Origin: Candidatus Obscuribacterales bacterium
GTDB lineage: Bacteria; Cyanobacteriota; Vampirovibrionia; Obscuribacterales; Obscuribacteraceae
NCBI GenBank assembly: GCA_020050685.1
Contig: JAGVKG010000029.1
Coordinates: 124,001-188,000, forward strand
Direction: 5' to 3'
DNA: 64,000 nt
A program made the translations under genes and the position numbers. Shown one piece after another: positions 11,943-59,073 of this stretch (position 1 is its first letter; the number at the start of each line of letters is the position of its first letter). The notes below the pieces were generated by a model. The model was not told the origin of the DNA and did not search any database. It worked only from the letters and a program-made list of their open reading frames with translations.

Positions 11943-12050
11943 TAGCTATGCTTTATCATATTTGTCTTTCAGGCATTCAAGCACTTGCTCCAAGCAAGCC
12001 ATGTATTGATTCCTATTTGCATCGTTGCGATTAAACAAGAGGTGGAGATT

Positions 12051-15000
12051 ATGAGGCACGTACCAGGCAAGAAGCCACAGTTTGTATTGGCATTGCTTCT
12101 TTCGTTTTTGACTTTGCAGGTTACCTCCCCATTTGCTCCGGCATTCGCGCAAGGCTTCGCCGAACGGCAGGAAGCACGGCAAGCGCAAGCGGAATTCTCA
12201 AACAATGCGGCCGCCTTCAGGGCAGCGGCAGGTCGGCATATGGATCTTGACCTGGCATCGACTCAAGCCAGTGTTGCTGTCACACAAGCGATGCTTGGTA
12301 CTGCTCAGCAAGCCGAAATCAATGTAGGAAATCTGACTCGCCAAGTTGGCGTAGGTGACATGCTGACCGCATCAGAATTTGTTGCCTTGGCCCAAGTGAT
12401 GACAGGTAAGTCGCAAAGTCTAATGCTCAGCGATCTTGGACACGCAGTTGGTGGAACTTTCTCTCTTGCTGATCTCAATACCTCGAAATTTTCTTCACTA
12501 GTTGTCCCGCAAGGTGTGACTGCAGTTTTGGAAGGGCGTTCCAACTTACATGTGTCGGATACGCTTTCGGCCCAGGGAACTCTTCTCGGCATGGGCAATA
12601 ACGCTCTAAACATGGTGAATGTTCGTGCAGGCAATGTGCTTGTTGATGGCGCGATGATGACCGCACCAGGTGGCGTCAACATGAGTGTATTTGCGCTGCA
12701 AGATCTGACCAATAATGGCAATATGAGCGCAAGCGGTGTTCTGTCTGTTTTGGCTGGTGGCAATTTGTCTAACACAGGCACGATGTCCGGTGGACAAGGT
12801 TTGCACCTTTATAGTGATGCTGGTCAGTTTTCTAACTCCGGTCAAATGATGGCTCAATCCGGAAATGTTTACGTCAGCACTAATGCTAATAGCAATCTTT
12901 TGTTTTATAACCCAGGTGGTTCGGTGCTTGCCAATCAAGGTTCTATATATGTACGCGATGCGGGATTTTCTGCCAAGCTGGCAACCGAACTATCTGGCGG
13001 TACGTTTGCTGCCAATTCCTTGAATGTTTATGGCGGTGATGGTGATGTGCGGGTCAATGTCGATCAAGTAAGCGGCGTGCTCAATATATATGGTGGCACC
13101 GCTCAAGTGGTTAACCGTGTTGGCGACCTTCAGATGGGAGTTGTCTCGCTAACCGGAGATCCTACATTTGCTAACAGTGGTGGCAACGTTGTCTTACTGA
13201 ATGACCTAATTTTCCCGGGACAAGATCTGGCAATTCTGGCATCAGGAAATGTAGTTGCTGCCTCAAATGTTAAGCTCATCAATGTATCCGGCCTCGATCC
13301 TGGTGATGTTTATATAGTTGCTGGTTTTAACTTTACGCCAAATACAGGTGGAATCACTGAGGGGCCGCCCGCCAATAATGCCACGCCTTATACGTACGCG
13401 CTGGCTGCTACGGCATCACCCGACGGTGGTGGAATCAATTTGGGATTAGTCTCAATAAACGCAAGCAGTACTGCCTTATCTGGATCGGGTACTTCTGGAA
13501 ATGTCACTTTGATTGCGAAGGCAGGAACCCTGCCTGAGCCGGCAAATATCGCTACGATAGAGATTAACAACGTTACGACGACCAACAAAAAGGCTGACAA
13601 TGGCGGAAATATTTTGATGATTGGTCAAAACGGTGTACAGGTCAATGGAACACTTGATACTTCGGCAAATAGAGAAAGCGGTAATGTTTCTATCTTTGGC
13701 GCCACGCCAGTGGTCAGTGGCGGGTCCATCATATTCACAAATGGTACTAAAACTGGAACTGGTGCATTTGGGGCTCCTGCTCTTAGCAGCGCAAACGAAG
13801 CAGAAATTCTCGTAAAAGGAAAGATCCTCACTACCGGTGTTGCCCGCAATGGTGGCGATGTATTTATCAAATCGGATGAGGTTATCACTGTCTCTGGTCT
13901 GATCAATGCCTCAGGAGGAAATTACACTCTGGACACCTTCCAATCAGCTGGCAATGGAGGCAAAGTAGATATCACTAGCTCAGGCGACGATATATTTCTG
14001 AATAGTGGTGTGATGAGCAATGGTGGCGTTTTTGCTACCAGTGGCGATTCAGATTTTGCCGGCAATGGTGGTGAGATAATACTTACTGCCTCAGGGCTGC
14101 TCTCTGTAACTGGCGGCATATTTTCCAAAGGCGGTGATAATAAATCAACCGCCGACTTCCCCTTCTCTAGAGGAGGTAATGGTGGACCTGTGACCCTTAA
14201 TGCCTCATCCATAAACATCGTAAAAGGTGGGGTTGATGTACATGGTGGCAAACCGGGTTATAAGGGCGATGCTGGTAATGGTGGAAGTGTAACGAGTACA
14301 AGCCAAACAATTTTTGTCGATGGAACCATCGACACAAGGGGTGCGAATGCTACACACCATTTCGACGGTGGTGATGGTGGTAATGTCACAATTAGCTCTA
14401 CTGGCAATCAATCCCTTTCCGATATCATTACAGTTGGGGGCAACAATCCTGTACATGATGACGAACAATCTGGTGCCTTTGCTGGTAATGGTGGCAATGT
14501 CACTCTTACAACAACGAATAAGCTTGCGAATCTTTTAGTGGACGGTGACATCATTTCTTCTGGCGGCAACGGTGGTGACCTTGCAGGCAATTCTGGAACT
14601 ATTAGATTTTCGCCAAATGTGCTGAATCCTGTCAGTTTTAACACAGTTACAATCAATGGCAATTTAATTGCCGCTGGAGGTAACTCAGGCAGTGATGCTA
14701 CAGGCGGCACTGGCGGCCAAATCATTGCCGAGAACGTCGTTAACGGATTTACTGTCAATGGATACGTGAGTACTAAGGGCGGCAACAGTAAGACTTTCGA
14801 TGGTTCTTCCGGAGTAGGTGGTGATGCCGGTAACATTACGATTCTCACTCTTGTTAATACATTTGGTGATACACCACGGGCTTTCAGACGCGGACAAATC
14901 GTAATTAAATCCTACGTTGATGGACGAGGGGGAGATGGTATAGGCGCGGATGCTGATGGTGGTGCTGGTGGGGACATAACTTTGGCAGCAGCCACAATTC

Positions 15001-17273
15001 AAGTGTTAGGTAAGAATGGTGACTTCAGCGTCAGCGCATCGGGAGGTAAATTTGGTCTTCCGACTGGCGTTGCCGGTTCACCTGGAACAGTTGACATTGA
15101 TACGTTCGGTTTGCAATTTATTCCCCAGAATTTCAATACAGTGAGCATGACACCAACAGAATTTGTTGCACCAGGTGGTGTCTTCAATGTTGGCAATGCC
15201 TCGGTCAATGGTACAGCCGGTAATGTTGTTGGTGGACTAAGTATCGCTAATTCCACAAATGCAAATCACGTGACGGATGGTGGCGGTGCGTTCACCAGTG
15301 CTAATGTGAACATTACCGCAACTGGTGATAGCTTCGATGTAATTATCGGCAACGATCCACCGGTGGCGTTCACGACCGACAATGGACCGGGAACTCCACG
15401 TAATAAAGTAACACCAAGTATTGCTTTAGCTTTATTCCAAGTTACGCATGATGCTGCCGTTGATGCTCAAACAGTAGGTCTGATCACTCCTCCTCTAAAA
15501 CCGCTTAATAACAGTGTGATGAGTGATACCAATCCTGAGTCTCTTTCAAACCCGAGTCTTCTCACGGTTCCATCTGATGAGATCTATAGACCGTTTACGG
15601 CATTCAATATGCTTACTTCAAGTGGAGACAATGACTTCCGCATGGATGTTGTTACAGGTGATCCAGTGACATTCAATCTCACTCAAGCATCGCTGATTAA
15701 CATTGGCGGGTTTATTGATGTTACTGATCCTTCCACTGCCACATTCAATTTCGGTGGAAAGGCACCTCTGGTTTCTGCAACAGGTAGAGTTGAAGCAGAT
15801 TCCCTAACATTCTCAGCTACAAATTCAGCTTGGACAATCAATGGTGTCATTCAGGCACCGTTTATGACCTTCACTAACCCAAGTGGTGCTATTGCTCTTA
15901 AGATGGCATCTACCGGTCAACTGATTGGGCCGGGAGCGTTGGGAACACTAAGCGTCAATGTTGCGAAAGGGAGTTTCGTCCTTAGCAACTCGACGCCCAC
16001 ATTGCCAACCACACCATTCATCGATGTTGATTTGTTCATATTGGCACCAGCAATTCAAATTGGAACTGTTCTTGCGCCAGTTACATTTGGCAGTGATGCT
16101 AGCTTGACTTCTTTAATAGCTACCGGAGCTGTTAGCGTGGTAAGCAAAGGAAATCTCCTTGTTGCGAACAACGGATTCGTTTCGGGAGGCGGAGGAGTAA
16201 CACTTACGACTACCGATGGTGGAGATTTAACCGTTGGGGACATGACGGGAGTTTCCAATTTTGATTACATGGATACGTTTACCCTTGATCCAGCGGTGAC
16301 ATCGAAAGGTCTAGTTAATCTAACTTCGGCTGGTGAACTCTTCATAGGTAATATGTCCGTGGTAAGAGGAGGTGGAGGAGTAAACCTGAAATCCGTAGAC
16401 GACCTCACCTTGGATCACGCAAGCGGTATTTTCAATCAAAATGGTGCTGGTAACATAAATCTTACAAGTACTCTCGGTGATGTTTTCTTGGGCGATGTCG
16501 CTACGATTCAAGCCGGCCGCCTCAATGCCGCACTTGGCACTAATCCATTGGTAAAAGCTGATATCAAGTTCACTGGAGGTGTATTTGTGACTGCTGCTCT
16601 TAATTTGCAAGTTGGTAATGCCAGCGGCAATATCAATTTAATTCAATCAGTAGGAGGAGATGTAAGATTTCTTGCCAATGGCGGAGATATCGTAGTGGAC
16701 AACACTGTTGCTGGTGGAGAGATTCGCGCAGATGGTGGCAATATCCTCTGGGCTGCTTCAGGCGACATCGCAAATGTAGATGATCAGTCCAGTGAACTGC
16801 TTGCTCGTTCTGTGGGAACAATTAGTTCATTTACCGGTGGTGGCATGGCCTTTGCTGCCGGCAACAATAATATGACTGCCCTAGTTGCTGGCCTTGTTCT
16901 AACTCTCAAGACCAGACCGGTCGCATTCACGGAAACTCCGGTGGGTGTGGGAGCTCTAATTGGTGCTGACATTAATAATGAAAGTACAAGAGGTGTCGTT
17001 TCTGCCACGGGAACTGTTGCTAATATTAATATGGATGCGAACGCGAATTTATCAACCCTAAATATGTTTGGCGGTGTTGTGAAGTTATCTGCTGATGGAG
17101 TGGGGAATGCCATTTCAATGGACAATCTGCAAGTTACCGCAACGGCACCACCCGGGCAAGTAATCAAATTTGAATCGGAAGATTATGCCTCTGAATCTGA
17201 GCTTATCGTAGACACGGGAAGCGATTGTGATGAGGAGAGTGAAGGCAATGGCGGGATCGCCTTAGCGCCATAG
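12051..17273 (+). CDS. Giant glycine-rich adhesin-like secreted beta-helix protein
   Basis: 1,740 residues from the ATG at 12051, which has GGTGGAG just upstream; the frame is open further upstream but without a site. A signal peptide (VLALLLSFLTLQVTSPFAPAFA) is followed by a Gln/Ala-rich stretch, a filamentous-haemagglutinin-like segment (about 120-320, many NNGNMSASG / LSNTGTMSG turns), a glycine-rich repeat block (about 630-980) with recurring GNGG units, and a long Asn/Gly/Thr-rich C-terminal part of beta-strand pairs. The end is acidic (DCDEESEGNGG). I see no autotransporter barrel, LPXTG or PEP-CTERM tail, and no TpsB partner is in the window. Most likely a surface adhesin or matrix protein; the secretion route is open. 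Confidence 0.8.
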   Translation: MRHVPGKKPQFVLALLLSFLTLQVTSPFAPAFAQGFAERQEARQAQAEFSNNAAAFRAAAGRHMDLDLASTQASVAVTQAMLGTAQQAEINVGNLTRQVGVGDMLTASEFVALAQVMTGKSQSLMLSDLGHAVGGTFSLADLNTSKFSSLVVPQGVTAVLEGRSNLHVSDTLSAQGTLLGMGNNALNMVNVRAGNVLVDGAMMTAPGGVNMSVFALQDLTNNGNMSASGVLSVLAGGNLSNTGTMSGGQGLHLYSDAGQFSNSGQMMAQSGNVYVSTNANSNLLFYNPGGSVLANQGSIYVRDAGFSAKLATELSGGTFAANSLNVYGGDGDVRVNVDQVSGVLNIYGGTAQVVNRVGDLQMGVVSLTGDPTFANSGGNVVLLNDLIFPGQDLAILASGNVVAASNVKLINVSGLDPGDVYIVAGFNFTPNTGGITEGPPANNATPYTYALAATASPDGGGINLGLVSINASSTALSGSGTSGNVTLIAKAGTLPEPANIATIEINNVTTTNKKADNGGNILMIGQNGVQVNGTLDTSANRESGNVSIFGATPVVSGGSIIFTNGTKTGTGAFGAPALSSANEAEILVKGKILTTGVARNGGDVFIKSDEVITVSGLINASGGNYTLDTFQSAGNGGKVDITSSGDDIFLNSGVMSNGGVFATSGDSDFAGNGGEIILTASGLLSVTGGIFSKGGDNKSTADFPFSRGGNGGPVTLNASSINIVKGGVDVHGGKPGYKGDAGNGGSVTSTSQTIFVDGTIDTRGANATHHFDGGDGGNVTISSTGNQSLSDIITVGGNNPVHDDEQSGAFAGNGGNVTLTTTNKLANLLVDGDIISSGGNGGDLAGNSGTIRFSPNVLNPVSFNTVTINGNLIAAGGNSGSDATGGTGGQIIAENVVNGFTVNGYVSTKGGNSKTFDGSSGVGGDAGNITILTLVNTFGDTPRAFRRGQIVIKSYVDGRGGDGIGADADGGAGGDITLAAATIQVLGKNGDFSVSASGGKFGLPTGVAGSPGTVDIDTFGLQFIPQNFNTVSMTPTEFVAPGGVFNVGNASVNGTAGNVVGGLSIANSTNANHVTDGGGAFTSANVNITATGDSFDVIIGNDPPVAFTTDNGPGTPRNKVTPSIALALFQVTHDAAVDAQTVGLITPPLKPLNNSVMSDTNPESLSNPSLLTVPSDEIYRPFTAFNMLTSSGDNDFRMDVVTGDPVTFNLTQASLINIGGFIDVTDPSTATFNFGGKAPLVSATGRVEADSLTFSATNSAWTINGVIQAPFMTFTNPSGAIALKMASTGQLIGPGALGTLSVNVAKGSFVLSNSTPTLPTTPFIDVDLFILAPAIQIGTVLAPVTFGSDASLTSLIATGAVSVVSKGNLLVANNGFVSGGGGVTLTTTDGGDLTVGDMTGVSNFDYMDTFTLDPAVTSKGLVNLTSAGELFIGNMSVVRGGGGVNLKSVDDLTLDHASGIFNQNGAGNINLTSTLGDVFLGDVATIQAGRLNAALGTNPLVKADIKFTGGVFVTAALNLQVGNASGNINLIQSVGGDVRFLANGGDIVVDNTVAGGEIRADGGNILWAASGDIANVDDQSSELLARSVGTISSFTGGGMAFAAGNNNMTALVAGLVLTLKTRPVAFTETPVGVGALIGADINNESTRGVVSATGTVANINMDANANLSTLNMFGGVVKLSADGVGNAISMDNLQVTATAPPGQVIKFESEDYASESELIVDTGSDCDEESEGNGGIALAP
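13945..14975 (+). repeat. Internal GNGG-unit repeats of the adhesin
   Basis: Ten or so degenerate units begin with a Gly-Asn-Gly-Gly-type turn, at about 13951, 14062, 14176, 14274, 14371, 14484, 14565, 14706, 14817 and 14955. Each is followed by a hydrophobic strand and a G-x-I/V-x-S/T-x-G-G turn. Spacing is about 80-140 bases (typically 100-115), near 35 residues, consistent with rungs of a right-handed beta-helix. Repeat identity is moderate, so this is old duplication rather than recent slippage. Confidence 0.7.
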
Positions 17274-22339: not shown

Positions 22340-23044
22340 ATGAAGACATCCGATAGCATGAACCTGGCAATGAAGATGTCAGGCAATAGACTCAACAAGA
22401 AGTTGGCTGTAGCCGCAAGTCTAGCGCTTGTGATGAGTATTCCTTGTTTGAATGCTATGGCTGATAGCGATACGACAACTGCTCCGAATTCTGCCAGTCA
22501 AAATGCACCAGAAGCAAGTTCAACAGTTTTGCAAGGTGGCGTGCAAAAGACAGCTAAGCAAGCCATGTTAGGTTTGAGATCCATTACCGATGCTTCTGGA
22601 AAGTTGAAGCGGGCCGCGTCTGACTTATTTGGTGAGTGTTCCAGGCACGATCAACAAATTGAAGAAGAGCCAGAAATGATCGGTGGCACAATTATTGAAA
22701 TTCCAATTAGTTTTGATCTCGGACCGTGTTTGCCGCCGCGCAAGAAGTATGTTGACTTGTTCATGAGTCATATCGAGCAATTTGATAACCTTTTGGATGA
22801 GGAAGTTGCAGGGATTTTGATTCCTGATGATAAGACTGAATCAGTCAATCCGGTGATGAGCAATATGAATGTGGTTATGCAAGATGTGGATTCTCGTTTA
22901 GCGAGCTTGAAGCAGTTGACTGGCACTAAACCATATCCGGGCACTGCAATTGGGCAGCAGTGCAAACTCATATCAGATGATATGAAGCAATTGAATGAGT
23001 TGACCAAAAAAGCATTTCACTTGGTTAAGGATAAACATAGCTAG
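22340..23044 (+). CDS. Secreted helical protein, first of a paralogous pair
   Basis: About 234 residues from the ATG at 22340, preceded by GGAGGCAGGAGCG; the frame is open upstream from a TTG without a site. A signal peptide (KLAVAASLALVMSIPCLNAMA) precedes a Ser/Thr-rich linker and a helical domain with a GECSRHD motif, a GGTIIEIPISFD segment and LIPDDKTESVNPVMSNMNVV. The next gene encodes a protein with the same order of elements (GECYRAD, GGFGMVIPLSPD, VIPEDRAALLNPMLDQL), so the two are paralogues. Probably periplasmic. Role unknown. Confidence 0.75.
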   Translation: MKTSDSMNLAMKMSGNRLNKKLAVAASLALVMSIPCLNAMADSDTTTAPNSASQNAPEASSTVLQGGVQKTAKQAMLGLRSITDASGKLKRAASDLFGECSRHDQQIEEEPEMIGGTIIEIPISFDLGPCLPPRKKYVDLFMSHIEQFDNLLDEEVAGILIPDDKTESVNPVMSNMNVVMQDVDSRLASLKQLTGTKPYPGTAIGQQCKLISDDMKQLNELTKKAFHLVKDKHS

Positions 23045-23062
23045 GCAGTGAGGTTGGCAAAG

Positions 23063-23833
23063 ATGATTGGCAGAGTTTCACTGGCATGTTTAATTGTCGG
23101 TTCTACGTTTGTGACGACTGGATTTACTTTGGTTTTTGCTGAGGATGCGACTCAGCCCGTTGTGCCAAGCGATGAAGCCAAGTCTAAGGTAAAAGACGAG
23201 AGTACAAGCGATAGTGCGACAAGCGGAACCAAAACAGAAATAAAAGAAGAGAAGCCTGAAGACAAGAGTGAAGGCAGTCAGTTGCCTGCCCCAGCGGAAG
23301 CTAAATCGTCTGGAAAAAACAAAAAGGAAAAAACGCCGAAGACAATTGCTGAGGCAATAAAGCTGATTAATCAAAAGCTCAATGGCATTCAACGTTTAGC
23401 TAAGCAAATGGAAGGTGAGTGTTACAGGGCTGATACGGCCATGAGCCAGGGTCAGGAGGTGACTGGTGGATTTGGTATGGTGATACCGCTTAGTCCAGAT
23501 AGTGCATCAGGTAGTCAGAACTATCAGGCACCAAGACCAAAACAAATCAGGCAATACGCTAAACACATAGAGACCAATGTTTCCGATATCCAAGAATTAC
23601 TTACTTCTATTGTGATTCCAGAAGATAGGGCGGCTCTACTTAACCCGATGCTTGATCAGCTTAAATCATCGATTGCTGCGGTGCAGCAACACCAAAATAA
23701 TGTTAGCGGCAATTTGAATGCCATGGAAATTGCTCGAGGGACTATTTTGAGCGAAGCGCATTTTTTTCAAGGCGTAACAAACCGTGTGCGTGAAGATGGC
23801 GATAAACTGAGCAAGGCGGCGTCTAAAAAGTAG
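23063..23833 (+). CDS. Secreted helical protein, second of a paralogous pair
   Basis: About 256 residues. The ATG at 23063 has GAGG 9 bases upstream; a GTG at 23048, 3 bases after the previous stop, is an alternative. A signal peptide (VSLACLIVGSTFVTTGFTLVFA) is followed by a highly charged Lys/Glu/Ser linker (about 35-95) and a helical domain sharing GEC-x-R/H-x-D, GG...IP.S.D and IPED/IPDD...NPM elements with its neighbour. The single Cys in GEC is kept in both. Likely co-transcribed with the preceding gene. Its last 11 bases overlap the end of the convergent methyltransferase gene. Confidence 0.75.
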   Translation: MIGRVSLACLIVGSTFVTTGFTLVFAEDATQPVVPSDEAKSKVKDESTSDSATSGTKTEIKEEKPEDKSEGSQLPAPAEAKSSGKNKKEKTPKTIAEAIKLINQKLNGIQRLAKQMEGECYRADTAMSQGQEVTGGFGMVIPLSPDSASGSQNYQAPRPKQIRQYAKHIETNVSDIQELLTSIVIPEDRAALLNPMLDQLKSSIAAVQQHQNNVSGNLNAMEIARGTILSEAHFFQGVTNRVREDGDKLSKAASKK

Positions 23834-24746
23834 CATCGCTACGCAAAAGTGTTTGCATGGCAAATTGTACGGAGCGCACATCCAATGAATTCCCGAGCAG
23901 TCTCCAGCGTGCATTGAATGAGAATTGCTCTGGAAAAGTAAAAGTATTTCTGAATCCGAGCAAGCGCAGTATTTCTCGATCGGAAAATCGCCTCAGCGTG
24001 TCATCGTAGTTTTTTAGAAATGAGCCGCTAGCCTTCATGCATTTCCAATAATTGCTGGTAAAGCAAATGGCATAGGCATCATCCACCTTGGGGTCAATAA
24101 CATTCAATGATTCACCAAACCGATTCATTTGTTCCCGTTCCAAGGTAAGTTTTGGATCCGGATTGGTTTCTAAAAATGATGACAAGGACGCACTGTCGCT
24201 ATGCTCTATTCGGCTATCACCGATTGTTTTTCCATCACGCCTGGCAAGCAAGAAATAGCGCGGACGTCTCATTGGTACACCGAACATTGTTGGGCAAATG
24301 TGCAATTGCTTAAAACTATATCCGGCATCTTGCAGCATGGTAACCAAGCGCGCTTGTGCTTGCGAATCGGCAAAACCCAAAACATTTTCTAGTAAGAGGT
24401 ACTTTGGCAAATGTTTGCTAAATAATTGCATGACGTTTAAGAAAGAAACGGCTCTGGCATCGTTCATGTCTTTTGCCTTCCCACGTCTGCTATAGGGAGT
24501 ACAGGGTGGGCTGAGCCACCATAGATCTGATTCATGAATATGTTCGTGCCTAATGCTGTCCAAATTATGAGCAGTCGGTCTTCTGCCGAAGTTGGCAAAA
24601 TATACTTCATTTGCCTCGGCACTTTGATCAAATGAACAAACTATATCTATTTCTTGCCAGTCGAGCTTGCCGTAATCTAAAGTCCGGCAAGCTTCAGCAA
24701 ATCCGCCAATGCCGGAAAAGAACTCAACGGCCCTCAGCGATGACAC
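23823..24746 (-). CDS. DNMT2-like cytosine-5 methyltransferase (predicted tRNA C38 type)
   Basis: 307 residues. Motif I is VEFFSGIGGF; the catalytic cysteine is C82 in SPPCTPYSR; motif VI is LLLENVLGF; motif VIII is RPRYFLLAR. Features special to the DNMT2/TRDMT1 family are present: ANEVYFANF after motif II, the CFT motif (AICFTSNY...ASGS) in the target-recognition region, and the closing LLGF...FP...RWRLLGNSL. DNMT2 proteins, including known bacterial members such as that of Geobacter, methylate C38 in tRNA rather than DNA. No restriction enzyme lies nearby. The start is a GTG 1 base after the TPR-gene stop, so it is coupled to the xylA operon. The fold is certain, the tRNA target an inference. 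Confidence 0.85.
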   Translation of the reverse strand: MSSLRAVEFFSGIGGFAEACRTLDYGKLDWQEIDIVCSFDQSAEANEVYFANFGRRPTAHNLDSIRHEHIHESDLWWLSPPCTPYSRRGKAKDMNDARAVSFLNVMQLFSKHLPKYLLLENVLGFADSQAQARLVTMLQDAGYSFKQLHICPTMFGVPMRRPRYFLLARRDGKTIGDSRIEHSDSASLSSFLETNPDPKLTLEREQMNRFGESLNVIDPKVDDAYAICFTSNYWKCMKASGSFLKNYDDTLRRFSDREILRLLGFRNTFTFPEQFSFNARWRLLGNSLDVRSVQFAMQTLLRSDATF

Positions 24747-24747
24747 T

Positions 24748-25314
24748 CTAGTCTACCGGCTTGTAACCAAGCTGTTCGACTTTGGCTCTGTCCTTTTCCG
24801 CTAAGTCTCTGCGACCCACCTTGATATAGGCCAAAGCACGATTGTAATAAGCATTACCGTCTTTGGGATTGAGGGCGATGGACAGTGTACAGTCGTCAAT
24901 ACCTTTTTGATCGAGACCAAGTTGCATGTAAGCAACACCGCGCTCCATGAAGTATCGCGAATGAGTCGGATCAAGTGCGATTGCTTTTGTGAACGCATCG
25001 ATTGATTCTGGATAACGTTTCAAAAAGTATAAGGACTCAGCTTTGTTGAAGTAAGCCTTGGCAGACTTAGGTTCTATGGCAATCTGTTCATTGAAACAAT
25101 TTAGTGCGTCGGTGTATTGGCCAAAGGATTTGAGATTCTCACCTTTGAACTCATAAAACCAAGCGGCTTGTCCTTGTGTACAGGCTAGTATTCCTAAAGC
25201 TGTACAGACCAATGTCGATATGAGAATAATTAGGTTCAACTTGGAATGAGGCGAGATCCTTCTTGCGCTCTTGGTCGTTGATTGTTCTGGTTGTGTAATT
25301 GTATTGTTAGTCAT
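24748..25314 (-). CDS. Membrane-anchored TPR-repeat protein
   Basis: A 188-residue protein with an N-terminal cytoplasmic tail, one membrane segment (about 27-46, LNLIILISTLVCTALGILAC) and four tetratricopeptide repeats from about residue 56: WFYEFKGENLKSFGQYTDAL, AKAYFNKAESLYFLKRYPES, SRYFMERGVAYMQLGLDQKG and GNAYYNRALAYIKVGRRDLA. TPRs mediate protein-protein contacts, here on the periplasmic side if the anchor is type II. AGGAAG lies 11 bases before the ATG. It sits 14 bases after xylA and 1 base before the DNMT2-like gene, all on the same strand. The partner is unknown. Confidence 0.85.
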   Translation of the reverse strand: MTNNTITQPEQSTTKSARRISPHSKLNLIILISTLVCTALGILACTQGQAAWFYEFKGENLKSFGQYTDALNCFNEQIAIEPKSAKAYFNKAESLYFLKRYPESIDAFTKAIALDPTHSRYFMERGVAYMQLGLDQKGIDDCTLSIALNPKDGNAYYNRALAYIKVGRRDLAEKDRAKVEQLGYKPVD

Positions 25315-25328
25315 CTTGATGTAACTTC

Positions 25329-26549
25329 CTATGCACGGGCAGCAAGAGTTGTTTGTTTGGCGGCTGTCGAAGCGGTGTTGCCGCGCACGCCAAGCAAGAG
25401 TTCAAAAACGAGTTGATCGAGGCGTTCATAATTACGGCCAATCTCAGCCAGGTGTTGAGTGTCAAAAGCCGCTGATTTCAGCTTGCTAGCAGATGCTTTG
25501 CTGTATGTGCCAAGTTGATATTCATCGTGTCCGCCTTCGGCACGAATTTCTTTTAGCAGAGACTGTATCTCTTTGTCTTCGGCGAATTGGTGCGCTTTCT
25601 CTTTCAAGATGTTGTAGCTGCGCATGCAACCAAGGGCAAAGGCAAAGACGCCTTCTTCATCTTCTGATCTATAAGCATGTGCGTCGAAATGTCTTGGACC
25701 GGCGTAACCCGATTCTTCCAAGAGCTTCACCAGATAAAACATTGGCTTAATGGACTCGGATGCAAATCGTAAATCTTGATCGTATCTACCGGGCTTTTGA
25801 TCATTCAAATCTATATGGAACAATTTGCCGGCATCAATAGCCTGCGAAATTGAATGGTAAAAATTCAAGCCACTCATATGCTCGTGCGCTACTTCCGGAT
25901 TGACTCCGACAATTTCCGGATGATCCAAAGTTTCGATGAAAGCCAGCATATGACCGGTTGTCGGCAAATAAATATCTGAGCGTGGCTCATTTGGTTTGGC
26001 TTCTAAAGCAAACTTCAAATTGTATTTTTGATCGAGAGCATATTCGGTTAGGTAATTTACACCTTCGCGATACCACTTAAGGGCTTCGATGGCATCTTTC
26101 GCGGCATCGACTTCTGTTCCTTCACGTCCACCCCAGAGTACAAATATTTCTGCTCCCAGTTCGACACCTAAATCCATGGCCTTCATTGTCTTCTGAATGG
26201 CAAAGGCGCGCACGCGGGCATCGGACGAGGTGAAAGCACCGTCTTTGAAAATCGGATGGTAGAAAAGATTGACGGTTGCCATTGGCACTTTCATGCCATG
26301 TTCGCTCAGGGCTTTTTTAAATTCGCTGACGATTTTCGTGCGCTCAGTTTCATTCGCCTCAAATGGCACTAAGTCATTGTCGTGTAAATTGACGCCATAG
26401 GCTCCCAGCTCAGACAGTCGCTTCACTATTTGAGTTGGCGAGATAGCACCGCGTACTGCATCGCCAAATGGGTCGCGCCCACGGTTGCCGACAGTCCAAA
26501 GTCCAAATGTAAAGTGGTCTTCTTTCTTGGGTGTATATTGATCGGACAT
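25329..26549 (-). CDS. xylA: Xylose isomerase
   Basis: About 406 residues, class I (Streptomyces-like) xylose isomerase, converting D-xylose to D-xylulose (and D-glucose to fructose) in the cytoplasm. Active-site residues follow the Streptomyces enzyme with an offset of two: H56, D59, E183, K185, E219, H222, D247, D257, D259 and D289, seen in [40 protein letters not shown] and RHFDAH. I chose the ATG at 26549 with GAGG upstream; a GTG at 26564 has no site. It is divergent from xylB across a 174-base gap and heads an operon with the TPR and DNMT2-like genes. Confidence 0.96.
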
Positions 26550-26723
26550 AGCGCTTGACCTCACACGACAAATGCGGGAATGGAACGTATAAAACTTCGA
26601 GTTATCATGTTATCGCAACTTTCCTCTTAGAAACCCCTCTAAAAACCATTGCATTGTCGCCTATGGGTTATATTGTTCAAAACATTCCTTTTGGGTGAGA
26701 ATTTCCACTGTTTGGAGAGTTTT

Positions 26724-28250
26724 ATGTCTCGTTTTCTTGGCATCGATGTTGGTACGTCCGGAACAAAGACATTGGTTATTGATGATCAGGGGCGCATTCT
26801 GGCTGAAGCGACTGCCACGTATCCTTGTGCTCATCCTGAGCCGCTTTGGAGTGAACAGGACCCGGACGATTGGTGGCAGGCGACAGTCACTACTGTGCGC
26901 CAAGTTATGCAAAAGGCGGGTCTCAAGCCGGAGGATGTCAAAGCTATCGGTTTATCCGGACAAATGCATGGATCGGTGTTTCTCGATAAAGCTGGCAATG
27001 TGATTCGTCCGGCAATTCTCTGGAACGATCAACGTACCCAAGCCGAATGTCTTGAATTGGAGAAAGTTTGTGGGGGCAGACCGAGTTTGATCAGCCTGGT
27101 TGCCAATCCTGCCCTAACCGGTTTTACTGCGCCAAAGATTTTGTGGTTGAGGAAAAATGAGCCAGCCAATTTTGCCAAGTTGGCCAAAGTTCTTTTGCCG
27201 AAAGATGAAATTCGCCGGCGTCTAACGGGCGAATATGCCACTGATGTTTGTGATGCTAGCGGTACATTGCTCTTTGACGTGGCGCACCGCCGGTGGTGCT
27301 TGCCGCTTATGGAAAAGCTGAAACTGGACACGAGCATCTTGCCGGAAAGTTATGAATGCGATCAAGTGACGGGCAAATTAAGCACAAGTGCTGCCAAAGA
27401 ATTAGGCTTGAGTACAGAGTGTCTTGTGGTTGCTGGTGCCGGTGATAATGCAGCTGGTGGCATTGGTAATGGCATTGTTCAACCTGGCGAAGTATCTACG
27501 TCAATTGGTACATCTGGCGTGATCTTCTCTTATCTCGACAAACCAATTGTTGATCCTGAAGGTCGTGTACACACTATATGTCATGCAGTTCCAGGTAAGT
27601 GGTATATGGCTGGCGTGAATTTGTCCAGTGGTGCGTGCTTACAATGGTTTGGCGAGGAGCTCTGTCAGGCGGAAGCGAAAAGCACTAATGGCAATCTGTT
27701 TAGTGTTCTGACTAAGGAAGCTGAGGGAATTCCACCCGGAGCAGACGGTTTATTCTTCTTGCCTTATTTGGCAGGAGAACGAACACCACATGCTGACCCC
27801 GATGCGCGTGGTTGTTTTATTGGCATGACTTTATCACATCGCCGCGGCCATATGATTCGGGCAATTATGGAAGGGGTGACGTATGCGCTGCGTGAGAGTA
27901 TGGAAATTATGCGCGGGCTGAATATTCCCATAACGGAAATTCGTGCATCTGGCGGTGGTTCGCAAAGTAAGCTTTGGCGACAAATTCAATCGGACATGTT
28001 TGGTCAACCTGTGAAAACCTTAAATGCTGAACAAGGTCCAGCCTACGGCGTGGCATTATTGGCGGCAGTGGGAGCCGGTGCATTTAATTCGATCCAAGAA
28101 GCCTGTGCGGCAACTATCAAGGTGGTGCAGGAAACACCGGTGAACACGAACAATAGTAAATATTATGATCGTGCTTTCCCTCTTTATAGAGATCTATATA
28201 GATCGTTGAAAGCCGATTTCAAAAGCATTAGTGCATTGGCAAAAGTATGA
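26724..28250 (+). CDS. xylB: Xylulokinase
   Basis: About 508 residues of the FGGY carbohydrate kinase family, phosphorylating D-xylulose to xylulose 5-phosphate. The N-terminal phosphate loop is LGIDVGTSGTKT. Substrate-contact segments are LSGQMHG and ILWNDQRT. The catalytic Asp lies in GAGDNAAGGIGNG, and the second FGGY region includes ASGGGSQSKLWRQIQSDMFG. I chose the ATG at 26724 with GGAG 6 bases upstream over an in-frame start at 26649. Divergent from xylA. Its stop overlaps the start of the next gene (ATGA). No xylose transporter or xylR is visible in the window. Confidence 0.96.
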   Translation: MSRFLGIDVGTSGTKTLVIDDQGRILAEATATYPCAHPEPLWSEQDPDDWWQATVTTVRQVMQKAGLKPEDVKAIGLSGQMHGSVFLDKAGNVIRPAILWNDQRTQAECLELEKVCGGRPSLISLVANPALTGFTAPKILWLRKNEPANFAKLAKVLLPKDEIRRRLTGEYATDVCDASGTLLFDVAHRRWCLPLMEKLKLDTSILPESYECDQVTGKLSTSAAKELGLSTECLVVAGAGDNAAGGIGNGIVQPGEVSTSIGTSGVIFSYLDKPIVDPEGRVHTICHAVPGKWYMAGVNLSSGACLQWFGEELCQAEAKSTNGNLFSVLTKEAEGIPPGADGLFFLPYLAGERTPHADPDARGCFIGMTLSHRRGHMIRAIMEGVTYALRESMEIMRGLNIPITEIRASGGGSQSKLWRQIQSDMFGQPVKTLNAEQGPAYGVALLAAVGAGAFNSIQEACAATIKVVQETPVNTNNSKYYDRAFPLYRDLYRSLKADFKSISALAKV

Positions 28251-30184
28251 GCGAATCGCAAGACGCCAATCCGAACATTTCTCAGCCGGAAGATTCGGCA
28301 GGAGATTCCTCTGTCCAAAATCGTTCTCGCATGCGACCGCTATTGATTTTTGATGGTGATTGTGGCTTTTGCAGATTCTGGGTTGATGCGTGGCGGGTGA
28401 AGGTCAAAGATAAAATTGACTTTGCGCCGTTTCAAGAAGTGTCCGGCGAGTTTCCAGAGATTGCCAAAGATGAATTCAATAGATCAGTTCAATTGGCCAT
28501 GCCAGATGGTCAGATCTTTTCTGCTGCCAATGCCGTCTTTCGTGTTTTAAGTGTTGATCCAAAAAGCAAATGGATGCTGGATCTTTACGAAAGGAATTCG
28601 GCTTTTAGAAAAATAACGGAATGGTTCTACCGATTGGTGGCAGATAATCGTCCGCTTTTCTCAATGCTCACGCAGGTATTGTGGGGACAAGCCGAGTCCG
28701 ATTACTGGCTGGCGCGCTGGCTATTTCTGCGTTTGCTTGGTCTTGTGTATCTCATCGCCTTCTTTTCTTTAGGCACTCAAGTACTGGGCTTAATTGGATC
28801 GCACGGGATGTTGCCGGCAAATTTGTTTTTAGATCTGGTAAGGCAACAAGCTGGAGATATGCGTTTCTATTTTGCTCCCACGCTTGCCTGGTTGGATTCA
28901 AGCGATACTTTTTTGCAGTTTCTTTGTATTGCTGGTGCATTGGCTTCTTGTTTTGTGACGTTAGGAATTGCCACAGGGGCAGCTTTGGTAATTTGTTGGC
29001 TCTTCTATCTTTCGCTTGTCACCATCGGCGGTGACTTCCTTACCTTTCAATGGGATGGATTGTTGTTAGAGGTCGGTTTTCTTTCGCTATTTTTAACGCC
29101 GTGGCAATTCGCTGAACCGCCCTGGCCTTTCAATAAAAAACAAACTTCTAGACCACCCTCGATTGCCGTGATTTGGCTTTTGCGTTTAGTACTGTTCAAG
29201 CTTACCTTTATGTCCGGTGCAGTTAAACTAATCAGTGGAGATCCCTCATACAGGGATCTAACTGCGCTTACCTACCACTGGTGGACGCAACCACTGCCAG
29301 TGCCGCTTGCCTGGTACATGGACAAATTGCCTCTGGCATTGCAGAAGTTTTCTTGCGCTTGCATGTTCTTCTTTGAGCTGGCTGTACCATTTACTATATT
29401 CACACCGCGGAAGATTAGAGTCCTTGGCAGTCTTTTGATGATCTTCTTTCAATTCATGATCATATGGACTGGCAATTATACGTTCTTCAATTGGCTGGCA
29501 ATTGCTATGGCGTTATTGCTCATTGATGACAAAGCATTCAGCCGAGTTCTTCCCTCCCGTTTATACGATGCTGTCATTAATGCGGGCCGTTTGGCCAGAA
29601 ACACGCCTTTGCGATTACTATGGCTTTCACCGCTAGTAGCCTTCCTGCTTCTTCTTGCTGGCGGAAAGGCATTAGCGATTATGTCCGGTCTCAACCCGCT
29701 TACCTTGCCGGTGCTTACGCTAAATCAGTATCTTGCACCATGGCACATTACTAATGATTACGGTGTCTTTGCTGTGATGACCAAGTCGCGCCAGGAAATT
29801 ATTGTCCAGGGCAGTGATGATGGTGAGAGCTGGAAGACTTATGAATTTCCTTACAAGCCAGGTGACTTGAAGCGCTCACCGCCCATGGTGGCACCGCTGC
29901 AGCCGCGTTTAGATTGGCAAATGTGGTTTGCTGCCTTGGGTACTTACCAAAGGAATCCCTGGTTTACCAATTTTATGATCCGCTTGTTGCAAGGCGAGCC
30001 CGATGTGCTCAAGCTCCTGCAATACAATCCATTTCCGGATCATCCACCTAAATATGTACGAGCCCTTTTGTTTAATTACCGCTTCTCCAGCGCTCAGGAC
30101 AAGCAATCAACCGGAAATTGGTGGCAGCGCTCATATGAGGATGTCTATTTCCCAATGATCTCGCTTTCTTCCGCAACCGATTAG
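28247..30184 (+). CDS. DCC (DUF393) thioredoxin-like domain fused to lipase maturation factor-like membrane protein
   Basis: A 645-residue fusion. Residues about 31-140 form a DCC/DUF393 domain with the signature IFDGDCGFC, a thioredoxin-like fold with a CxxC-type redox or metal site. Residues about 150 to the end match the lipase maturation factor family (LMF1-like): WLFLRLLGLVYLIAF, GLIGSHGMLPA, FLTFQWDGLLLE, KLISGDPSYRDLTALTYHWWTQPLP, then several membrane helices and a C-terminal soluble part. LMF proteins aid folding of secreted enzymes in the ER; the bacterial role is unknown. Translation is coupled to xylB by an ATGA overlap, an odd pairing. Domain calls are confident, function is not. 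Confidence 0.88.
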   Translation: MSESQDANPNISQPEDSAGDSSVQNRSRMRPLLIFDGDCGFCRFWVDAWRVKVKDKIDFAPFQEVSGEFPEIAKDEFNRSVQLAMPDGQIFSAANAVFRVLSVDPKSKWMLDLYERNSAFRKITEWFYRLVADNRPLFSMLTQVLWGQAESDYWLARWLFLRLLGLVYLIAFFSLGTQVLGLIGSHGMLPANLFLDLVRQQAGDMRFYFAPTLAWLDSSDTFLQFLCIAGALASCFVTLGIATGAALVICWLFYLSLVTIGGDFLTFQWDGLLLEVGFLSLFLTPWQFAEPPWPFNKKQTSRPPSIAVIWLLRLVLFKLTFMSGAVKLISGDPSYRDLTALTYHWWTQPLPVPLAWYMDKLPLALQKFSCACMFFFELAVPFTIFTPRKIRVLGSLLMIFFQFMIIWTGNYTFFNWLAIAMALLLIDDKAFSRVLPSRLYDAVINAGRLARNTPLRLLWLSPLVAFLLLLAGGKALAIMSGLNPLTLPVLTLNQYLAPWHITNDYGVFAVMTKSRQEIIVQGSDDGESWKTYEFPYKPGDLKRSPPMVAPLQPRLDWQMWFAALGTYQRNPWFTNFMIRLLQGEPDVLKLLQYNPFPDHPPKYVRALLFNYRFSSAQDKQSTGNWWQRSYEDVYFPMISLSSATD

Positions 30185-52532: not shown

Positions 52533-55500
52533 ATGTGGATAGTTGAGCTTGCGCTCAAGCGACCTCATACCTTTATTGTACTGGCATTGACGATTGCCAT
52601 GTTTGGCATTCTGTCTATTGTTAGAATGCCTGTGGATATCTTTCCAACTATTGATGTACCTGTAGTCAGTTGCGTCTGGACATATCAGGGCATGTCGCCT
52701 TACAACATGGAGAACCTCGTAACTACGGTTTGCGAGCGTGCCTTGACGTCAACTATCAATGGCATCAAATATATGGAATCGACATCTCTCAGTGGCATGA
52801 GTATTGTCAAACTGTATCTCCAAAAAGGTACAGAAATCGGTGAAGCAGTGGCAATGACGGAAGCAGTTGGCACGGCAATTCTTCGCCAGCTACCGCGCGG
52901 CATTAGCCCTCCATTTGTCACTGCCTCCAGCGCAACGGATGTACCAGTTATTCAGCTTGGCTTATCAAGCGATACTCTCAACGAGGCGCAACTCTTTGAT
53001 ATTGCCAACAACTTTGTGCGTAGCCAATTGGCAACAATTCAAGGCACGACGGTACCATTTCCTTATGGTGGCAAATATCGCCAGGTTTCGATTGATCTTG
53101 ATCCAGACGCTTTGGTGGCATTTGGACTTTCTGCAAATGATGTGATGAATGCGGTGAAGAATCAAAGCGTTGTCTATCCGTGCGGCACAGCCAAGATGGG
53201 TCCCTTTGAATATATTGTGATCATGAACAATATTCCCGCCACTATCGAAGAGCTGAATGCTTTGCCCATAAAGGCAGCAAACGGCGCTGTCATTTTTGTT
53301 CGTGATCTTGCACATGTGCATGACGGCAATCAACCGCAGCTGAACATAGTCAATCATAACGGTAAGCGCTCTGTACTGTTCAATATACTGAAAAGCGGTA
53401 ATGCCTCAACACTCTCCGTAGTCCAGCGCGTTAAGGCGCTCTTGCCTCATATTCGCTCGATAGTGCCACCAAGCTGTAAAATTCAGATCCTCACGGACCA
53501 ATCAACCTTTGTTCGCGAATGTGTTTTTGAAGTTGTCCGAGAAGCAATCACAGCAGCCACGTTAACAGCCTTTATGATGCTTGTGCTTTTGGGTAGCTGG
53601 CGATCAACATTGATTGTCGCAAGCTCGATTCCATTGGCTATGCTGGCATCAATCATCGGTCTGAATATTTGCGGGCAAACTATTAATTCAATGACACTGG
53701 GCGGACTGGCATTAGCAGTTGGTATGTTGGTAGACGACGCCACTGTTGCTGTGGAAAACCTGCACGTCAATTTGTCCATGGGTAAGGATATTGAGCGTGC
53801 CATTCTTGATGGAGCCGAGCAAGTTGCCTTGCCTGCATTGGTATCAACTCTGTCCATATGCATTGTTTTCGTGCCGGTGCTTTTCTTGACGGAACCGGCA
53901 CGATCACTGTTTATCCCATTGGGAATGGCAGTTGTTTTTGCCATGCTCGCATCTTACGGGCTTTCACGCACAATCGTGCCACTTATGTCCAAGGCATTAC
54001 TTTCATCTGAGGTGCGTAATGCAGATATCCAACCGCACTTAAATCAACCGGGAAATATTATTGCCAGGACGTTCGCTTCAGTGCACGACTTTGTCGAACA
54101 CTATTTTGAATTGGCACGAGAACAATATCAGCACGCCCTTGAGTGGGTGCTTGAGCATCGTCGTCCCGCAGTTCTCATGTTTCTTGGCTTTTACGCACTT
54201 TCATTTTGTTTGACCTGGACAATTGGCGCAGACTTCTTTCCAACAATTGATGCCGGACAATTGCGTCTGCATGTGAACGCGCCCGCAGGCACTCGCATAG
54301 AACAAACGGAGAGAATATTCCATCGTATTGAAAATGCAATCACGAAATCATTAGGTAAGGATTTGGTCGAAAGCATGACGGACAATATCGGACTACCGAT
54401 AAGCGGGGTCAACTATGCCTATTCCGACAGTCAGACAATTTCCGAAGCTGACGGCGAAATTCTTATTAATCTTTCTGAACATAAGTCTCAACCAACCACT
54501 TATTATCAAAAACAGATCCGACGATTAATCGCGCACGACTTTCCTGAGGTTAAATGCTATTTTCAGCCGGCCGATATCGTCACTCAGATCCTCAATGCTG
54601 GTCTGCCGGCACCTATTGATGTCAAAGTCCTCGGAATGAATAGAGAGAAGAATATCGAAACTGCCCAAAAACTAAAGCACCAAATTCAACAGATTGAAGG
54701 TGCAGCGGATGTCTGCTTACATCAAGCTTCTAGCGCACCACATTTTCGTTTTGACGTAGATAGAATTCGCGCCGAACAAGTCGGTCTTTCCCAAGAGGAC
54801 GTCTCAAATTCACTCAATATATCACTGACTTCAAGCTTCCAAACCAATCCCAACTTTTGGATAAATCAAAAAAATGGCATCAGCTATAATCTGGCAGTCC
54901 AGACGCCACAATATCAATATCGATCGATTGACGATTTGCGCAATATGACAGTGACGTCCGGCATATTTGCCAAGACGAAATACAAAAGTACAGGGCAAGC
55001 TCAGCCCACTGCCTCACCTAATGTTGTCTCGACTTCCCAATCGGCACAATTTGCTACACCGGAGCTGTTAACCAACTTGGCTTCATTCAGCCGAGTACCA
55101 ACACCAACTGTCATCAATCATTTTGACGTTCTTCCCGAATACGACATTTTTGCTGCCTGTCAGGATAGAGACTTGAACGGAGTTTCTCAAAAGGTGATAC
55201 AAATCGTCAGCGAAACACGCAAAACCTTGCCACAAGGAACTTTTGTTTTTACCGCTGGGCAGGTTAAGAGCATGCTAGAAGCATTCATAGGTCTTATATC
55301 AGGTCTTGCCTTTGCTCTTGTACTCGTCTATTTGCTTTTGGTGGTAAATTTCCAATCCTGGACAGATCCCTTAATTATTCTCATGGCGGTTCCCGGCGCA
55401 TTTTCGGGAATCATCTGGAGCTTGTTTGTTACCCATACTTCTTTTAGTATTCCCGCTTTAATGGGGACGATCATGACGGTAGGTGTTGCATCAGCCAACT

Positions 55501-55826
55501 CAATTTTGATGATTACATTTGCCAATGACGAATTGCTGAAGGGGTGTGATCCAAAGACAGCAGCCCTTAACGCCGGCTTCCAACGCTTTCGCCCAGTCAT
55601 AATGACGGCCACTGCCATGATAATCGGTATGATACCAATGGCAATTGGCGCCGGGCAAGGCGGATCACAAAATGCACCTATTGGTCGTGCTGTAATTGGT
55701 GGACTGACTGTAGCAACATTTTCAACTTTACTTTTCGTGCCCTTGATCTTTAGTTTATTTAGAGAAAAATGGAAAAGCTCAGCACAAGCAGGCTCCAGTA
55801 AAATATCGGACGGGGGAAGCAAGTAA
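52533..55826 (+). CDS. RND efflux permease, first of a tandem pair
   Basis: A 1,097-residue inner-membrane transporter of the RND superfamily (HAE1-like length and layout). TM1 is TFIVLALTIAMFGILSIV with the PVDIFPTIDVP loop; the TM4 motif GMLVDDATVAVENL keeps both proton-relay aspartates; TM10 reads VGVASANSILMITFAN, where the usual Lys of AcrB-type pumps is absent. It has 12 helices and two large periplasmic domains, with a Ser/Thr/Pro-rich insertion at about 815-850. A second permease follows 5 bases later and the adaptor after that, so all three form an operon. The substrate is unknown. Confidence 0.93.
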   Translation: MWIVELALKRPHTFIVLALTIAMFGILSIVRMPVDIFPTIDVPVVSCVWTYQGMSPYNMENLVTTVCERALTSTINGIKYMESTSLSGMSIVKLYLQKGTEIGEAVAMTEAVGTAILRQLPRGISPPFVTASSATDVPVIQLGLSSDTLNEAQLFDIANNFVRSQLATIQGTTVPFPYGGKYRQVSIDLDPDALVAFGLSANDVMNAVKNQSVVYPCGTAKMGPFEYIVIMNNIPATIEELNALPIKAANGAVIFVRDLAHVHDGNQPQLNIVNHNGKRSVLFNILKSGNASTLSVVQRVKALLPHIRSIVPPSCKIQILTDQSTFVRECVFEVVREAITAATLTAFMMLVLLGSWRSTLIVASSIPLAMLASIIGLNICGQTINSMTLGGLALAVGMLVDDATVAVENLHVNLSMGKDIERAILDGAEQVALPALVSTLSICIVFVPVLFLTEPARSLFIPLGMAVVFAMLASYGLSRTIVPLMSKALLSSEVRNADIQPHLNQPGNIIARTFASVHDFVEHYFELAREQYQHALEWVLEHRRPAVLMFLGFYALSFCLTWTIGADFFPTIDAGQLRLHVNAPAGTRIEQTERIFHRIENAITKSLGKDLVESMTDNIGLPISGVNYAYSDSQTISEADGEILINLSEHKSQPTTYYQKQIRRLIAHDFPEVKCYFQPADIVTQILNAGLPAPIDVKVLGMNREKNIETAQKLKHQIQQIEGAADVCLHQASSAPHFRFDVDRIRAEQVGLSQEDVSNSLNISLTSSFQTNPNFWINQKNGISYNLAVQTPQYQYRSIDDLRNMTVTSGIFAKTKYKSTGQAQPTASPNVVSTSQSAQFATPELLTNLASFSRVPTPTVINHFDVLPEYDIFAACQDRDLNGVSQKVIQIVSETRKTLPQGTFVFTAGQVKSMLEAFIGLISGLAFALVLVYLLLVVNFQSWTDPLIILMAVPGAFSGIIWSLFVTHTSFSIPALMGTIMTVGVASANSILMITFANDELLKGCDPKTAALNAGFQRFRPVIMTATAMIIGMIPMAIGAGQGGSQNAPIGRAVIGGLTVATFSTLLFVPLIFSLFREKWKSSAQAGSSKISDGGSK

Positions 55827-55831
55827 ATTAT

Positions 55832-58800
55832 ATGTGGATTGTTGAGTTAGCCCTAAAGCGTCCGCACACATTTGTAGTTATGGCTTTGTCGATTGCCTTG
55901 TTTGGCATTCTTTCAATCACACAAATGGCTGTTGACATATTTCCGGTAATTGATGTGCCAATCGTTAGCTGCATTTGGAGCTACACCGGAATGTCGCCCA
56001 AGAATATTGAGAATCTGATTACAACTGTCACGGAAAATTGGCTGACTTCAACTGTCAACGGTATCGAGCACATAGAATCGCAGTCGATGTCAGGCATGAG
56101 CGTGATTAAAATCTATTTGCACAAAGGCACAAATATCGGCGAAGCTGTGGCTATGGTGACGGCGGTAGGCAATGCCTGTCTGATTTATTTGCCGTCCGGT
56201 ATCACACCACCATTTGTCACGGTATCAAGTGCAACAGATGTGCCTGTCTTGCAGCTTGGCCTTAACAGCAAGACTTTGTCGGAAGCACAACTGTTTGATA
56301 TCGCCAATAATTTCGTACGTAACCAGCTGGCTACAATTCAAGGAGCGACCATCCCATTTCCATATGGTGGCAAATATCGTGAAGTGTTGATTGATCTCGA
56401 TCCGAATGCCCTAATCTCTACAGGACTATCGGCCAACGATGTTGTGCAAGCAGTCAATTCCCAGAGCATCATTGCGCCATCCGGCACAGCCAAAATGGGC
56501 CCATACGAATACATTATTACGCTCAACAACATTCCCAATGTGCTGGATAAGCTCAACGATATTCCCCTCAAGTCAGTGAACGGTGCTGTTGTCTTTGTCA
56601 AAGACGTCGCTCACGTTCATGATGGCTATCAGCCACAGCTCAACGTCGTCAATCAAAACGGTCGGAGAGCAGTTCTATTCAATATCTTGAGAAATGGCGA
56701 TGCCTCGACTCTAGCAGTAGTGGATCGAATCAAGCAAGCCTTGCCAAAAATTCAAGGTATTGTGCCGCCAGCCTGCAAGATTGAACTGCTCTCCGACCAA
56801 TCAATCTTCGTCAAAGAATGTGTCGCTGATGTTTTACAGGAAGCAATTACTGCAGCCGGTCTGACTGCATTTATGATGTTGCTTTTACTGGGATCATGGA
56901 GAAGCACCCTAATTGTTGCCACGTCCATTCCGTTGGCAATGCTTTCGTCTGTAATCGGCTTGCACGTTTGCGGACAAACAATCAATTCGATGACGCTCGG
57001 TGGCTTGGCACTGGCTGTCGGTATGCTAGTTGACGACGCAACCGTGGAAATTGAAAACTTACATCGTAACATGGATATGGGCAAACCAATTGTACAAGCC
57101 ATTCTAGATGGTGCACAACAGGTGGCCTTACCTGCATTGGTATCAACATTATCCATATGTATTGTTTTCGTGCCGTTGGTCTTTCTTACTGAACCTTCGC
57201 GATCGCTTTTCGTACCTCTCGGTATGGCAGTGGTCTTTGCCATGCTTGCCTCATATGGATTGTCGCGAACGATTGTACCGCTCATGTCCAAAACACTTTT
57301 AGCCTGCGAGGCACATACCGAGGAAAAACCACGCGAACAAATTGCTCAAGAGTTAGGTAAAACTTGGTTTGGGCGTATTCACGCATTTATCGATCATTAC
57401 TTTGAATTAGCGCGTGAAAGTTACAAGGGCGCTCTGGAATGGGCATTGCGTAAACCACGCACCGCTTGCATGCTTTTTCTCGGCTTCTATGCAACATCAT
57501 TTTGTTTGCTGCCCTTTATTGGCGAAGACTTCTTTCCGGCAATTGATGCCGGTCAACTGCGTTTACACGTTACTGCCCGTCCGGGAACGCGTGTCGAGGA
57601 AACGGAACGCTTATTTAAGAGAGTCGAGCGGGCAATTAGAAAGTTGATACCGAAAGAAGAAATTGGACTGATTACAGATAATATCGGCATGCCGGTGTCA
57701 GGTGTGAACTTTGCATTTTCAGACAGTCAGACATTTAGCGAGGCCGATGGCGAAATACTAGTATCATTAAAAGAACATCGCAGCCACAGTACATTCTGGT
57801 ATCAGAAGCAAATCAGGAAGATGATGACACATGATTTCCCGGAGGCGAGTTATTATTTCCAGCCAGCCGATATTGTCACCCAGATACTCAATGCCGGTCT
57901 GCCTGCTCCGATTGATATCAAATTAACAAATTTGGATCCGGCAACGAATTACAAAATAGCACAAGACATTAAGCGAGAGATTCAAAAAGTTCCTGGTGCC
58001 GTTGATGTTTGCTTGCACCAAGTCGTGGATGCACCGCAGTATGTATACAACGTTGACCGGACAAAAGCCCAACAACTTGGACTAACACAAAAAGATATTT
58101 CCGACTCAATGCTGATATCACTATCCTCAAGTTTTCAAGTCATGCCAAATTTCTGGCTCAATACCAAAAATGGTGTCAATTACGATCTCGCCGCACAAAC
58201 TCCGCAATATAGAATTTCATCACTCGATGATCTGCGCATTACTGCCTTGACTGCCCAGGACAACAATTATCAAATGCCGCCAAGCCAAACTCAGCCCCAA
58301 CAAGTGACACCACCATCGCCGCAACCGCAGATGCTCACCAATGTTGCCACGCATGAGCGTACGCCGACGCCGGCAGTCGTCAGTCACATGAATGTCCAAC
58401 CCGTGTTCGATATTTACGCGGCTTGCCAAGGTAGAGATTTGGGTGGCGTTGCAAGAGATATACGCCGGATTCTCGAAAAATATAGAGCGCACTTGCCGCA
58501 CGGCAGTTTCTTGACCATGGGCGGACAGGTTAAGAGCATGATTTCAGCTTTTGCCGGTCTTTTGGGCGGATTGATTTTTGCCCTGGTCTTGGTATATCTC
58601 TTGCTCGTCGTTAATTTCCAATCCTGGAGTGATCCACTGATTATTTTGATGGCCATACCCGGTGCATTTTGCGGAATTCTCTGGAGTTTGTTCGTCACTC
58701 AAACCACCTTTAGCATCCCAGCTCTGATGGGCACAATCATGAGCGTCGGCGTTGCATCCGCTAACTCAATATTGATGGTCACCTTTGCCAACGAACAGCG

Positions 58801-59071: not shown

Positions 59072-59073
59072 TC

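Follow-up and report, generated by a model that had tools for sequence, protein, structure and literature searches.

A DNMT2-like methyltransferase of the bacterial family Obscuribacteraceae and its relation to the eukaryotic DNMT2 enzymes

The locus and its genes

The window (the whole 64-kb stretch of DNA that was analysed) is a portion of a 4.2-Mb genome bin of an uncultured Candidatus Obscuribacterales bacterium of the Obscuribacteraceae, a family of non-photosynthetic relatives of the cyanobacteria. It carries a gene for a DNMT2-like protein, listed here with the genes directly around it:

23048..23833, plus strand: convergent gene for a secreted-looking protein without a Pfam match, overlapping the 3' end of the methyltransferase gene
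23823..24746, minus strand: DNMT2-like cytosine-5 methyltransferase, 307 aa, GTG start
24748..25314, minus strand: TPR-repeat protein, 188 aa, directly upstream of the methyltransferase gene; a DNMT2 neighbour in this genome alone
25329..26564, minus strand: xylose isomerase gene xylA (TIGR02631, 557 bits), an incidental neighbour of the methyltransferase gene
26649..28250, plus strand: FGGY-family sugar kinase (xylB-like), divergent from xylA

The methyltransferase reading frame runs on the minus strand from a GTG at 24746 to a stop at 23823 (307 codons); translation of 23823-24746 on the plus strand gives many stops. Along the minus strand the order is xylA, 14 bases, the TPR gene, 1 base and the methyltransferase GTG, exactly the spacing reported in the initial annotation. 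The convergent gene at 23048-23833 shares 11 bp with the methyltransferase 3' end. By sequence comparison the reading frame is confirmed as a real gene and chance is excluded, because 23 of 35 family members have orthologues with ~40-50% identity, and the catalytic residues are invariant.

Several other genes of the window were recorded in passing. The convergent gene is the second of two adjacent genes for secreted-looking proteins without a Pfam match (22340-23833), and next to the sugar kinase lies a bacterial protein in which a DCC1-like thiol-disulfide oxidoreductase domain and an LMF1 (lipase maturation factor) domain are fused (28247-30184). Further away are a Gly/Asn-rich repeat protein of 1762 aa, secreted-looking and without a Pfam match (11985-17273), and two AcrB-type RND pumps in tandem with one HlyD-type fusion protein after them (52533-60435).

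Placement among the cytosine-5 methyltransferases

When the window protein was searched against PDB sequences, the best matches were the DNMT2 proteins of human, S. pombe, Entamoeba and Spodoptera (E 7e-39 to 3e-27), with M.HhaI at E 3e-16 or weaker. A profile built from 23 family members gives the same picture, scoring 231-210 bits to DNMT2 against at most 131 bits to HhaI. The segments EANEVYFANF, SPPCTPYS, ENV, CFT and RLLGNSL (RLLGNS at residues 282-287) are all present; the DNMT2-like character first read from ANEVY..NF, CFT and RLLGNSL is upheld, in agreement with the tree and the PDB matches. CFT, reported as a motif of DNMT2 only (PMC3227630), occupies residues 228-230 and recurs in all 23 complete relatives compared; among 45 DNA cytosine-5 methyltransferases from the same class, the phylum, plasmids and viruses it was found in none.

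A phylogeny against DNA methyltransferases had been proposed as a check and was carried out with 24 Obscuribacteraceae proteins, four eukaryotic DNMT2s and the 45 DNA cytosine-5 methyltransferases. In the maximum-likelihood tree the 24 bacterial and four eukaryotic DNMT2 proteins fall together on one side of a branch (support 100/100), which has a length of 3.24 and parts them from the DNA enzymes. On that side the Obscuribacteraceae proteins form one group (100/99) and the eukaryotes another (98/85). Placement among the DNA methyltransferases, named beforehand as the outcome that would speak against DNMT2, was not seen: forcing the clade to join the HhaI-like enzymes costs 103 log-likelihood units and is rejected (p-AU 8e-55). 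Given sequence, tree and motifs, it is well supported that the window protein sits on the DNMT2 side of the family.

Active site, recognition residues and predicted fold

For comparison we used the eukaryotic DNMT2/TRDMT1 structures of human (1g55/9hgm), S. pombe (Pmt1, 6fdf), Entamoeba (3qv2) and Spodoptera (4h0n). The window protein has in common with these enzymes the catalytic Cys, ENV, the RxR motif, CFTxxY, the equivalent of human R95, the proline of PCxP, the fold and the length class. Cys82 (in SPPCT), Glu120 (in ENV, 120-122) and Arg161/Arg163 are invariant in the family, and so is R98, the equivalent of human R95, whose mutation mostly abolishes DNMT2 activity (PMC5995894).

The equivalents of human R275 and R371 are Arg in the window protein. 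Some residues that have been connected with tRNA binding by the eukaryotic enzymes are lost, which counts against the DNMT2 reading: K295 is replaced by Ser and K367 by Asn, neither of them basic, and an Asp of the acidic pocket is replaced as well. An acidic pocket, Phi-D-I-V, and the motif CFTxxYxxY have been described from the eukaryotic enzymes, where the pocket Asp is strictly conserved (PMC3380923). In the window protein this Asp is replaced by Asn (L-N-V-I) and the CFT context reads CFTSNYWKC; the pocket residue is D in 5 of 23 relatives, and the clade typically has Phi-N-(I/V)-(I/V). Since neither eukaryotic pattern is found in the window protein, we file it as a separate bacterial DNMT2 branch and not as eukaryotic-type DNMT2.

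Motif IV also differs from the eukaryotic PPCQ in most clade members. That the window protein has PPCT, as noted at the outset, is correct; it is not unusual, however, since PPCT is found in 18 of the 24 clade members (of the 23 relatives, 17 have T after the Cys and three have Q, while K, A and L occur once each). PPCT is the clade norm and no oddity of the window gene. The S. pombe Dnmt2 is active with PSCQ (PMC5372726); changes within motif IV can thus be tolerated, although the residue altered there is another one.

The AlphaFold model of the window protein (pLDDT 93.7) matches the DNMT2 structures with Z scores of 37.4-32.9 (3qv2 37.4, 6fdf 34.0, 1g55 33.4), with M.HhaI close behind at 32.2. 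The predicted fold therefore agrees with DNMT2 but is weakly discriminating, and does not alone decide between an RNA and a DNA substrate. Neither does the size of the target-recognition region, which had been put forward as an argument for an RNA target: the span between motifs VIII and IX counts 98 aa in the window protein, 117 in M.HhaI (DNA) and 121 in S. pombe Dnmt2 (tRNA). This makes the argument a weak one, and length was discarded as a test.

Distribution, gene neighbourhood and origin

A DNMT2 gene is present in 23 of 35 genomes of the same family and thus, with the window's own, in 24 of 36. Three genomes of the same order (belonging to another family) are without it, and a search of 385 further genomes from the phylum gave nothing of comparable score (best 138 bits). 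One of the orthologues, from a Candidatus Obscuribacterales MAG, is 43% identical to the window protein. A mobile origin was considered and set aside: no DNMT2 occurs among the plasmid, phage and viral-contig matches listed, all of which have at most 30% identity.

Directly downstream of DNMT2, on the same strand and often overlapping it, eight relatives have a gene for an RluE-like RNA pseudouridine synthase (loci L038, L046, L047, L048, L049, L050, L052 and L053, for example L049:8551-9225). Seven of these pairings come from one subclade of the tree and the eighth belongs to the earliest-branching protein of the clade, a distribution that would fit an ancestral pairing. Most genomes of the family have the synthase, with or without DNMT2, and it mostly lies elsewhere in the genome, as in the window's own. 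Because of this occurrence in genomes that lack DNMT2, and its separate position in the window's genome, the gene order is only suggestive of the synthase as an RNA-modification partner, or operon partner, of DNMT2.

DNMT2 is known mainly from eukaryotes, and in the literature found, bacterial DNMT2 is rare, as had been claimed: a 2011 survey reports it in Geobacter only and explains that gene as probably acquired from eukaryotes (PMC3227630). The Geobacter sulfurreducens Dnmt2 (GSU0227) is likewise a bacterial member of the family, from another phylum (PMC3227630, PMC6850298, PMC5456315). The Obscuribacteraceae proteins are a new, family-wide bacterial DNMT2 clade outside Geobacter (24 of 36 genomes) in which residues of motif IV and of the acidic pocket are altered.

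In the tree this clade is the sister group of the eukaryotic enzymes. Topologies that join the Obscuribacteraceae to Entamoeba (p-AU 0.46 with S. pombe included, 0.48 with Entamoeba alone) are not rejected either, so that any transfer may have run in either direction, including from a eukaryotic source. It might be argued, as a speculation to which we give rather low credence, that the clade is an old and largely vertical lineage, sister to the eukaryotic enzymes and not derived from them, that DNMT2 may therefore have arisen in bacteria, and that the clade enzyme acts on an altered set of tRNAs. A second bacterial group with a divergent and conserved DNMT2 reopens the question of the enzyme's origin. 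Its natural variants of motif IV (Q/T/K/A/L) and of the acidic pocket (D/N/H) provide material for testing tRNA recognition, and caution is needed with annotation that names such genes DNA or type II methyltransferases.

Predicted function and alternative explanations

We consider it probable that the product is an RNA methyltransferase, a bacterial enzyme of the DNMT2 type. What we computed in favour of this reading is the membership of the DNMT2 clade, the intact catalytic residues, the DNMT2-like predicted fold, the C38 in tRNA-Asp and tRNA-Glu and the presence of Tgt and QueA in the genome; the substrate, the methylated position and possible consequences for decoding or for the stability of the tRNA are what we infer beyond that. 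Judged from the family, formation of m5C38 on tRNA-Asp or tRNA-Glu is the most likely reaction of the enzyme. Among the tRNAs recovered from the genome, C38 is present in Asp(GUC), Glu(UUC), Ala(CGC, UGC) and Val(CAC, UAC); the Gly tRNAs have A38. The anticodon loop of tRNA-Asp is CUGUCAC, and its C38 was seen at all 30 loci examined, including those of genomes without DNMT2. We therefore dropped C38 as a correlate of the gene: it is permissive and not diagnostic. With both Tgt and QueA encoded, queuosine at position 34 is likely; in S. pombe this modification stimulates methylation of tRNA-Asp by Dnmt2 (PMC5995894). GluQRS is an enzyme that needs C38 on tRNA-Asp (PMC5372726); its model has no match above cut-off in the genome, and the best-scoring frame (499 aa, 211 bits) probably encodes GltX.

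The main alternatives concern the substrate. That the protein is an orphan DNA cytosine-5 methyltransferase (solitary and Dcm-like), which methylates chromosomal DNA and merely resembles DNMT2, is a reading that automated labels invite: Pfam assigns it to the general C5-methylase family PF00145 only, PADLOC calls it a DNA/type II methyltransferase and NCBIfam TIGR00675 (dcm) scores 100.3 bits, just under the cut-off of 100.65. M.HhaI and other type II enzymes moreover share the fold (Z ~32) and the common C5-methyltransferase motifs, and such enzymes are regarded as ancestral to DNMT2 (PMC3227630). Nonetheless, human DNMT2 matches the same PADLOC models, for which reason the PADLOC, Pfam and PHROG labels were discarded as evidence of DNA methylation, and the type II enzymes differ in lacking CFT, in their identity of ~21-27% to the window protein and in the long, fully supported branch between them. 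Several plasmid DNA methyltransferases that served as controls adjoin a restriction endonuclease, unlike the window gene. Its neighbours between 20.8 and 30.2 kb (xylA, the TPR gene, the sugar kinase, the LMF1-domain protein and three proteins that match no Pfam family) include no match to a recognised restriction-endonuclease family, although the three Pfam-less proteins could hide an unrecognised one. The DNMT2-like protein is the only PF00145 protein of the genome. In view of the DNMT2 grouping, the rejected HhaI grouping and the CFT motif, we regard a DNA methyltransferase as unlikely. A more serious, though still minority, possibility is a DNMT2-family RNA methyltransferase with a main target other than C38 of tRNA-Asp, be it C38 of tRNA-Glu or of a further tRNA (Ala, Val), or an RNA of another kind. 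The window protein deviates from eukaryotic DNMT2 at several positions of the tRNA contacts and the pocket, the other tRNAs listed above likewise have C38, and the synthase beside DNMT2 in the eight relatives is an RluE-type enzyme, a name that refers to 23S rRNA. PMC6850298 and PMC5456315 also cite the Geobacter enzyme as a tRNA-Glu C38 methyltransferase that prefers tRNA-Glu. On the other side stand the highly conserved tRNA-Asp loop with its C38 and the queuosine genes, given the stimulation known from S. pombe.

The initial annotation also placed the gene in a xylose-utilisation operon that couples tRNA modification to pentose supply. The short spacings on one strand, with no terminator-like site between the xylA, TPR and methyltransferase genes on the minus strand, are compatible with a single transcript. 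The arrangement is, however, found in the window's genome only: up to ~9 kb on each side of the other DNMT2 loci of relatives there is no xylA. A xylA of this family is present in just 4 of 22 other family genomes searched, and 12 of 14 DNMT2-bearing relatives lack it; the other two (G003 and G019) carry xylA and DNMT2 on separate contigs, and G002 and G021 have xylA without DNMT2. Some of these bins are incomplete, which makes single xylA absences weak, yet the overall pattern is clear. In the four relatives xylA is sometimes accompanied by a sugar kinase and never by the TPR gene or DNMT2. The pentose link was accordingly dropped, and we hold such an operon function to be very improbable. 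Under the preferred reading as a DNMT2-type RNA methyltransferase, the gene would have come to lie behind xylA and the TPR gene in this genome, where co-transcription may occur. The gene order is unconserved and says nothing general on function; most simply it would be a local rearrangement.

A separate observation concerns the anticodon stem of tRNA-Asp (loci L098-L127), where position 40 is C in some Obscuribacteraceae and U (a G30-U40 wobble) in others. Counted by eye and uncorrected for kinship, DNMT2 is carried by 11 of the 13 family genomes that have U40, compared with 7 of the 14 that have C40.
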